From: Microbacterium sp. 1.5R
GTDB lineage: Bacteria; Actinomycetota; Actinomycetes; Actinomycetales; Microbacteriaceae
Reading direction: 5' to 3'
Assembly (NCBI RefSeq): GCF_001889265.1
Contig: NZ_CP018151.1
Location: 2,046,001 to 2,110,000, forward strand
DNA length: 64,000 nucleotides
Shown: one piece after another, positions 25,818-27,704 of the stretch
How positions within the stretch are numbered: position 1 is the stretch's first letter
How the letters are laid out: each line of letters starts with the position of its first letter
Notes under the pieces: generated by a model
What the model saw: the letters and a program-made list of their open reading frames with translations, nothing else
What the model was told of the DNA's origin: nothing
Databases searched by the model: none
Program-made: the position numbers and the translations under genes

Positions 25818-27572
25818 TCAGACCGCTGCCAGCTCCAGCTGGCGCGTGCGGATCGAGCGGTTTACTCCCGAGACGATCGCCTTGAGGGATGCCGTCGAGA
25901 TGTCTCCGTCGATGCCGACGCCCCACAGGCGCTGATCGCCGACCTGCAGCTCGACATACGCCGCAGCCTGTGCGTCGCCACCTGCACTGAGTGCGTGCTC
26001 GACGTAGTCGTAGAGAGTGATGTCGAAGCCCTGACCGCGCAGCACCTCGATGAACGCGGCGATCGGTCCGTTGCCGTTACCGGCGACGGACACCTGCTGA
26101 TCGTCGTCGCGCAGTGTCACGTCGAGCACCACGTCACCCGACATGTCGCTGCGGGTCTGCGTCGAGAGCAGCTCGAACCGGCCCCACTTGGCCTCGGTGT
26201 CAGTGGCGGGCAGGTACTCGTCGTTGAAGATCGACCAGATCTGCTCGCTCGTGACCTCGCCGCCCTCGGCGTCGGTCTTGTTCTGGACGACGCCCGAGAA
26301 CTCGATCTGCAGCTTGCGCGGCAGGTCGATCGCGTGGTCCGCCTTGAGCAGATAGGCGACGCCGCCCTTGCCGGACTGCGAGTTCACACGGATCACGGCC
26401 TCATAGGAGCGTCCGAGATCCTTCGGATCGACCGGCAGGTAGGGGACGGCCCATTCGATGTCGTCGACCGTGACGCCCTCAGCCTCGGCACGGGCAGCCA
26501 TCGCCTCGAAGCCCTTCTTGATCGCATCCTGGTGCGACCCGCTGAACGCGGTGAAGACCAGGTCGCCCGCCCACGGCGACCGCTCGGGCACCGGCAGCTG
26601 GTTGCAGTACTCGACCGTGCGCTTGACCTGGTCGATGTCGCTGAAGTCGATCTGCGGATCGATGCCCTGCGTGAAGAGGTTGATGCCCAGCGCCACGATG
26701 TCGACGTTTCCGGTGCGCTCGCCGTTGCCGAACAGGCAGCCCTCGATGCGGTCGGCCCCGGCCATGTAGCCGAGCTCGGCCGCCGCGATCGCCGTGCCAC
26801 GGTCGTTGTGCGGGTGCAGCGACAGGATCACGTTCTCGCGGTGCGCCAGGTTGCGGCTCATCCACTCGATCGAGTCGGCGTAGACGTTCGGCGAGGCCAT
26901 CTCGACGGTCGCCGGCAGGTTGACGATGACCTTGCGGTCGGGGGTGGGCTCGAAGACCTCGATCACCTGGTTGCAGACGTCGACGGCGAACTCGAGCTCG
27001 GTTCCCGTGTAGCTCTCGGGCGAGTACTCGTAGTAGACCTTCGTGTCGGGGATGGTCTTCTCGTACTGACGGCACAGCCGAGCACCCTCGAGCGCGATGT
27101 CGATGATGCCCTGCTTGTCAGTGCGGAAGACGACCTCGCGCTGCAGCACGCTGGTCGAGTTGTAGAGGTGCACGATCGCCTGCTTGGCCCCGGAGATCGA
27201 CTCGTACGTGCGGGCGATCAGATGCTCGCGCGCCTGGGTCAGCACCTGGATGGTGACGTCATCCGGGATCAGGTTCTCTTCGATGAGCTGACGGACGAAG
27301 TCGAAATCGGTCTGGCTCGCCGAAGGGAATCCGACCTCGATCTCCTTGTACCCCATGCTAACGAGGAGTTCGAACATGACGCGCTTGCGCTCGGGCGACA
27401 TCGGGTCGATGAGCGCCTGATTGCCGTCGCGGAGGTCGACTGCGCACCAACGGGGCGCCTCGGTGATGCGGGCGTCCGGCCAGGTGCGGTCGGGCAGGTT
27501 GACCGTGATCTGCTCGTGGTACGGCCGATACTTGTGGATCGGCATCGCAGACGGGCGCTGAGTGTTCTGCAT
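25818..27572 (-). CDS. leuA: 2-isopropylmalate synthase
   Basis: 584 residues, the type-2 (actinobacterial) LeuA. It condenses acetyl-CoA with 2-oxoisovalerate, the first step of leucine synthesis. The catalytic TIM barrel starts with [18 protein letters not shown] (about 42-59) and carries [16 protein letters not shown] with the metal-binding His-x-His pair. The C-terminal 140 residues are the regulatory domain for leucine feedback. ATG 27572 is preceded by a GAAGAAG-type site. A 120-nt leader with a leucine-rich leader peptide precedes it (see 27579-27692). Confidence 0.97.
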
Positions 27573-27578
27573 GATGGG

Positions 27579-27692
27579 GCTTCTTCTCTTCGTCAGAATT
27601 GTGAACGGGCCAACACAAGCGCCGCGACGAGGAAGGCCCTAGCTTTAGGACTCGTCGCGGCAGCTAAGAAGAAGCAGACCGCCGAAAGGCAT
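27579..27692 (-). promoter_or_regulatory. leuA leader: candidate leucine-responsive attenuator
   Basis: Read on the minus strand. The RNA starts at the leader-peptide ATG (27692). Three pairings are visible. (1) An 11-bp stem, GCCGCGACGAG with CTCGTCGCGGC, encloses the leader stop codon. (2) The loop sequence GGGCC can pair with GGCCC downstream, which would form a pseudoknot. (3) GCTTCTTCTT inside the four Leu codons (27666-27675) is complementary over 10 nt, one a G-U pair, to AAGAGAAGAAGC at the leuA ribosome-binding site (27579-27590). Ribosome position on the Leu codons could therefore decide whether that site is open. Leucine-peptide leaders before leuA have been described in actinobacteria. 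The anti-Shine-Dalgarno reading is my inference. Confidence 0.65.
27645..27692 (-). CDS. leuA leader peptide (15 residues, four consecutive Leu)
   Basis: ATG at 27692 encodes MPFGGLLLLSCRDES then TAA. The four Leu codons are CTG CTT CTT CTT, mixing codons read by different tRNAs. The ATG lies exactly seven bases after a minus-strand -10-like TACCAT (27699-27704), so the peptide is predicted to be translated from the first nucleotide of the mRNA. Its stop lies 72 bases before leuA. The Leu run and position are those of a transcription or translation attenuation leader. Confidence 0.7.
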   Translation of the reverse strand: MPFGGLLLLSCRDES

Positions 27693-27698
27693 GCGGCC

Positions 27699-27704
27699 AT
27701 GGTA
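27699..27704 (-). promoter_or_regulatory. -10 element of the leuA leader promoter
   Basis: TACCAT on the minus strand, six bases before the leader-peptide ATG. The spacing matches the other predicted leaderless starts in this window. Confidence 0.5.

Follow-up and report, generated by a model that had tools for sequence, protein, structure and literature searches.

How is expression of leuA, the gene for 2-isopropylmalate synthase, controlled in Microbacterium sp. 1.5R, and what does the leader that precedes it contribute? We examined this question in a 64,000-nucleotide stretch of the genome (the window), in which the leuA ATG begins at 27572 on the minus strand. The encoded LeuA scored above the cut-off of both NCBIfam models, NF002991 and TIGR00970, and no other match was found in the 3.62-Mb genome. 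The closest named relative found was Microbacterium sp. MYb54 (LeuA identity, 96%). A sequence-only reading had proposed four features ahead of this gene: a leader peptide with four Leu codons, a 10-nt complementarity between these codons and the leuA Shine-Dalgarno (SD) region, an 11-bp stem around the leader stop codon, and a pseudoknot between the loop GGGCC and a downstream GGCCC. Each is present (Table 1). The leader comprises 15 codons, from an ATG at 27692-27690 to a TAA at 27647-27645. Within its Leu run, GCUUCUUCUU (27675-27666) pairs with GAGAAGAAGC (27588-27579) through nine Watson-Crick pairs and one G.U pair, whereas the stem, P1, has 11 bp in the window, of which the outermost pair is unconserved among relatives. 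Six Rfam matches with E values up to 5 were obtained in the interval 20000-36000, and none overlapped 27573-27704.

Table 1. Coordinates of leuA and of the proposed elements of its leader in the window
Feature	Position	Strand	Evidence
leuA, 2-isopropylmalate synthase, regulated gene	25818..27572	-	NF002991, 896 bits; TIGR00970, 849 bits
-10-like hexamer TACCAT of the leader promoter	27699..27704	-	12 nt before leader ATG
Leader ORF MPFGGLLLLSCRDES, probably leaderless	27645..27692	-	Leu runs in relatives; in-frame stop in P1 loop
Leu codons CTG CTT CTT CTT (sensor and anti-SD strand)	27666..27677	-	CTT enrichment
P1 stem, 5' arm GCCGCGACGAG	27651..27661	-	Covariation
P1 stem, 3' arm CTCGTCGCGGC	27621..27631	-	Covariation
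Pseudoknot strand B, GGGCC, in P1 loop	27635..27639	-	Own-versus-swapped test
Pseudoknot strand C, GGCCC	27607..27611	-	Own-versus-swapped test
leuA SD region, base stem with Leu codons, GAGAAGAAGC	27579..27588	-	10 bp; swap test

Leucine leaders of this sort had been noted in actinobacteria before, as the sequence-only reading stated. The window leuA leader belongs to the LEU element kind, which Seliverstov et al. (2005, PMC1262725) reported for the leuA upstream region of most Actinobacteria. They described a Leu-run leader, a pseudoknot, an alternative hairpin, and a base stem that joins the Leu codons to the SD. The window likewise has the Leu run, the pseudoknot, and the base stem, and the published set included Leifsonia xyli, from the same family; the base stem and the pseudoknot are therefore already known for leuA (PMC1262725). 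According to the same paper, leader mutations of S. coelicolor leuA are inconsistent with classical attenuation, and mutations of the Leu codons had no influence on Streptomyces leuA regulation (PMC1262725, citing Craster et al. 1999). Its authors make a case against control by the leader peptide and put forward a binding protein, whereas we favor ribosome stalling. The leuA leader of S. lividans has been reported to be leaderless, and leuA leader peptides have been reported in C. glutamicum and in C. diphtheriae, the latter without a mapped start. Similar in design are the mycobacterial cysteine attenuators (Canestrari et al. 2020, via PMC13236596), which also consist of a leaderless small ORF carrying consecutive sensor codons but respond to cysteine rather than leucine; in translation attenuation as described in PMC13236596, the SD is masked when the upstream ORF pairs with sequence downstream and becomes accessible on stalling. 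The ilvB leader attenuators of Actinobacteria likewise have leader peptides that are short, often leaderless, and contain branched-chain codons, but a U-tract accompanies their terminator and antiterminator hairpins, and control is therefore transcriptional (PMC8079986, PMC5784534, PMC13236596).

The element proved widespread among relatives of the window. Covariance model R1, aligned from 70 of 81 leuA loci (the others being duplicates and six long-loop loci), gave matches in 279 of the 296 class genomes at E values up to 0.01. The 17 genomes lacking a match at this threshold include families f17 and f20, and either leuA or the element alone may be absent from them. Among 60 sampled genomes of the family, R1 matches lay upstream of leuA in all 58 genomes having the gene, upstream of leuC in 41 of 57 leuC-bearing genomes, and upstream of a second LeuA gene (leuA2) in 4 of 7. 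At E values up to 0.05, 103 of the 111 R1 matches in these 60 genomes had leuA, leuA2, or leuC within 450 nt downstream; the remaining eight scored at most 30 bits each. R2, whose alignment holds 50 hand-chosen sequences, matched 14 of 149 genomes in a phylum-wide sample (E up to 1e-4). Thirteen of these lie inside the class of the window, and in the fourteenth (G450) the element likewise stands ahead of leuA.

From these searches we assembled 233 distinct elements: 180 before leuA, 16 before the second LeuA, 16 before leuC, and 21 before leuB. The window is represented by its own copy (L087). Three duplicates were removed, five matches of 29 to 34 bits without a downstream leucine gene (L139, L140, L141, L177, and L181) were dropped, and for L059 and L179 the arms were assigned manually. 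The search for further targets retrieved strong matches only in part, and gene starts outside 76 aligned leuA loci are predictions. At least three consecutive Leu residues occur in the leaders of 80 of the 81 leuA loci, window included; the lone exception, L012, reads Leu-Leu-Ile-Leu. All 233 elements place the in-frame stop of the leader inside the P1 loop.

Both structural elements of the core are supported by compensatory variation. P1 pairs in 99.6% of cells across the 50 chosen elements, with changes on both sides at 6 of 10 pairs; its covariation score was reached by 0 of 500 shuffles, and controls in which the pairing was slid scored much lower. For the pseudoknot, the own partner outperformed swapped partners across the 233 elements (z = 15.3, 0 of 2,000 permutations), z values in this comparison being inflated by the relatedness of the elements. 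The preference held by gene (leuA, z = 12.5; leuA2, z = 2.8, 15 of 2,000; leuC, z = 2.9, 3 of 2,000; leuB, z = 5.6), and the control pairings A:C and reversed C gave null results over the same 233 elements. An alternative pairing, A:B, was weak (z = 3.1 overall, 1.3 to 1.8 at leuA2 and leuC, none at leuB) and was set aside as a firm second state. We would guess that it corresponds to the alternative hairpin of the 2005 study (Fig. 6 of PMC1262725).

The pairing between Leu codons and SD calls for a stricter comparison. In the window alone it is only moderately unlikely by chance, being matched by 49 of 2,000 dinucleotide shuffles of the leader plus downstream stretch and by 58 of 2,000 when the downstream stretch alone was shuffled; the 10-bp pairing gains weight because comparison among relatives supports it. 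Base stems were compared in 76 of the 81 leuA loci, five whose start did not align with that of the window being left out. The contiguous helix between Leu run and SD measured 4 to 12 bp, with 5 to 6 bp in 46 of the 76 loci and at least 10 bp in 6, window included. The own SD was better than swapped SDs (0 of 2,000 permutations, a figure inflated by relatedness). When averaged by genus, it surpassed those of other genera in 23 of 34 genera, a set labeled by hand and including hand-labeled bins (P = 0.008). The own Leu run also beat recoding by genomic codon usage in 66 of the 76 loci and reshuffling of CTT and CTC in 56. The cleanest test of pairing specificity is to exchange leuA and leuC within one genome. 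In 14 of 15 genomes (G298 lacked a leuC start; 6 of the 14 belong to the genus of the window), the own partner was better in 12, worse in 1, and tied in 1 (P = 0.0004), and it was favored 11 to 3 when scored by energy (P = 0.012). Weighing against the pairing, duplex energy at 210 loci with predicted starts was barely better than recoding at leuA (106 of 179), fell below it at leuA2 (4 of 16), and equaled it at leuC (7 of 15). Conservation of the pairing exceeds the expectation from codons alone in most tests. Together, these comparisons support P1, the pseudoknot, the leader frame, and a putative SD pairing specific to the own gene. The alignment of relatives suggested by the sequence-only reading accordingly found all of its elements conserved, with covariation in P1 and the pseudoknot.

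Codon choice in the run is strongly skewed. CTT accounts for 357 of 697 Leu codons in leader runs versus 286 of 8,624 in gene bodies. The run ends in CTT in 204 of 210 leuA, leuA2, and leuC elements, although CTT makes up about 3% of the genes' Leu codons, and this final CTT often lies outside the SD helix. Codon rarity could account for some of the bias toward CTT, because leuB leaders likewise favor A/T-ending codons.

We then asked of a folding model, restricted to nested pairs and hence leaving out the pseudoknot, how a ribosome on the leader would affect the SD. In the 76 leuA loci the SD core had a mean unpaired probability of 0.24 in free RNA. Placing a ribosome on the third-last, second-last, or last Leu codon raised this value to 0.55, 0.52, or 0.44, respectively; placing it at the leader stop, a position that serves as a control for blocking as such, gave 0.29. 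Access to the SD rose in 65 of 76 loci and fell in 4 with the ribosome on the third-last Leu codon; with the ribosome at the stop it rose in 29 and fell in 22. The window behaved similarly (0.16 free; 0.55, 0.57, and 0.55 on the Leu codons; 0.14 at the stop), as did 15 of the 16 leuC loci (0.26 free; 0.44, 0.46, and 0.43; 0.27 at the stop). Recoding of the run to CTG gave 0.48 (window, 0.40). The folding model thus agrees with a mechanism in which stalling on Leu codons would free the SD.

The position of promoter-like hexamers bears on how the leader is started. Upstream of the nearest in-frame ATG in 156 elements, TANNNT hexamers were commonest at -12 (60 elements) and -13 (35), where they would be expected if transcription began on the start codon itself; a second maximum lay at -15/-16 (30 and 14). 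The spacing of TACCAT in the window fits a leaderless transcript. In 15 of 21 leuB leaders, the hexamer was absent at -11 to -14 of the chosen start.

We consider it somewhat probable that the leuA leader is a leucine-responsive translational attenuator of the LEU element kind. The 15-codon ORF would be translated from a leaderless start. With leucyl-tRNA plentiful, the ribosome would reach the stop in the P1 loop and depart, whereupon P1 and the pseudoknot could fold and draw the Leu codons near the leuA SD; base pairing with these codons would then mask the SD. With leucyl-tRNA short, the ribosome would stall on the Leu codons and cover the anti-SD strand, and leuA would be translated. Here we infer the leaderless start, the direction of the response, the level of control, and the role of the pseudoknot.

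Copies of the element at other genes extend the comparison. The window genome has a second strong element (78 bits) at C1:1616120-1616192 on the plus strand (locus L112), with the leader MRIVLLLSGRDETSF, ahead of a leuC that scores above the TIGR00170 cut-off and is followed by a LeuD-like N-terminus. All 16 leuC-linked elements fall within the family of the window. A third R2 match in this genome (25.9 bits) overlaps long open frames. The second LeuA is 48 to 57% identical to that of the window and has its own LEU element; 7 of 16 leuA2 elements carry the P1 variant GCCACG/CGTGG. A repeated TTGTCTGAGGAGTTG-like motif, perhaps a promoter or operator, lies upstream at L122, L124, L127, L128, L147, L167, and L168.

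The 21 leuB-linked elements all lie outside the family of the window; L156 and L211 were assigned to leuB by leader resemblance alone, the gene itself not being reached. An IlvE motif comes next in 16 of 18 leuB loci of sufficient length, and the IlvE of L149, the sole one checked, scores above NCBIfam cut-off NF009897. The leaders of this group, such as MRSVFVLIDCRGEA and MRHALILRCRGGA, contain 11% Val, 11% Leu, and 7% Ile, versus 1.6% Val, 28% Leu, and 1.1% Ile in leuA leaders, and among their codons those ending in A or T are favored (GTA 20, CTT 14, ATT 12). Such Val/Leu/Ile leaders match the operon because ilvE serves all three branched-chain amino acids. Sensor codons thus appear to track operon products, with Leu at leuA and leuC and Val, Leu, and Ile at leuB(-ilvE). 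The element lies 155 to 689 nt from the leuB start (19 measured loci), and no co-evolving pairing of leader codons with the next start was detected in a test that covered 19 of 22 loci (z = 0.3; 1,925 of 5,000 permutations as high). Pairing of leader codons with the start of a small ORF was convincing by eye in L149, L175, and L216 but was ruled out by this permutation test. The small ORF itself, of 26 to 50 residues with an ALDLRDNGG-like end, is conserved and separates the leader from leuB in 19 of 22 loci (L149 and L216 included); two examples had no Pfam or NCBIfam match. In the window genome, the best leuB-like gene (C1:1582381) is 69% identical to the LeuB of L149 yet under the TIGR00169 cut-off, and no R1 or R2 match lies upstream of it. 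Because the leuB start is distant and showed no co-evolving start pairing, SD blocking is not the sole output of this family. The translational switch proposed from the sequence alone is supported for leuA and leuC, given the conserved pairing and the folding with ribosome footprints, but not as a general mechanism of the family.

The same leuB observations lend some weight to a different arrangement, in which the leader peptide senses but control is transcriptional: the position of the ribosome would decide the fate of P1 and the pseudoknot, with Rho-dependent or other early termination following and SD blocking being secondary. Absence of a T-run had been taken to favor translational control. 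Direct reading of 27620-27573 indeed shows no intrinsic-terminator T-run after P1, but Rho-dependent control is still compatible with that. A core common to leuA, leuA2, leuC, and leuB would fit such a scheme, as would leuB starts 155 to 689 nt away without detectable anti-start pairing. We nevertheless regard it as unlikely, since it explains neither why at leuA and leuC each Leu run has co-evolved with the SD of its own gene nor the folding result at these genes. Less probable still is that the pairing is a by-product, CUY codons resembling the 16S anti-SD and rare CTT making a sensitive sensor, while the element works otherwise. The helices of mostly just 5 to 6 bp among relatives and the duplex energies of the 210-locus set, which beat recoding little or not at all, are what such a by-product would give, and leuB leaders lacking the pairing are also rich in rare A/T-ending codons; the own partner nonetheless prevails in 12 of 14 within-genome swaps, and CTT/CTC reshuffling is beaten in 56 of 76 loci.

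The proposal of the 2005 study differs from all of these in making the LEU element the site of a regulatory protein, an ML1624 orthologue with a DEAD-box helicase domain, with the leader peptide not acting as sensor. It draws on the phylogenetic pattern and the reported mutant phenotype (PMC1262725), and the Streptomyces leader-mutant data, as reported there, count against codon sensing. However, the core stays constant as the sensor codons change to match the operon, Leu giving way to Val/Leu/Ile, and every one of the 233 elements retains the in-frame stop. We hold this proposal to be very improbable, because a protein site predicts neither the codon shift nor the kept stop. The comparison favors a ribosome-stalling switch over the published protein proposal.

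The available text of PMC1262725 describes the LEU element at leuA and in one transposase, and the word leuB does not occur in it. A literature search, largely of titles and abstract openings, found no paper describing leuC or leuB copies. To the known leuA element the present comparison adds the leuC and leuB copies with matched sensor codons. As a tentative extension, one leaderless attenuator core may be an interchangeable module at actinobacterial leuA, second leuA, leuC, and leuB(-ilvE), with sensor codons matched to the operon. The codons would double as SD blocker at leuA and leuC, and the leuB core would act without blocking through an undescribed, pseudoknot-driven output; if the leuB core works without SD blocking, the pseudoknot itself must, under this module reading, drive the output. 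Operon-matched sensor codons and the fit to the own gene's SD make the mechanism of the LEU element, left open in 2005 (PMC1262725), directly testable. The distribution also suggests that many actinobacteria adjust several steps of leucine synthesis through a single RNA device, a point relevant to genome annotation and to strains used in amino-acid production.
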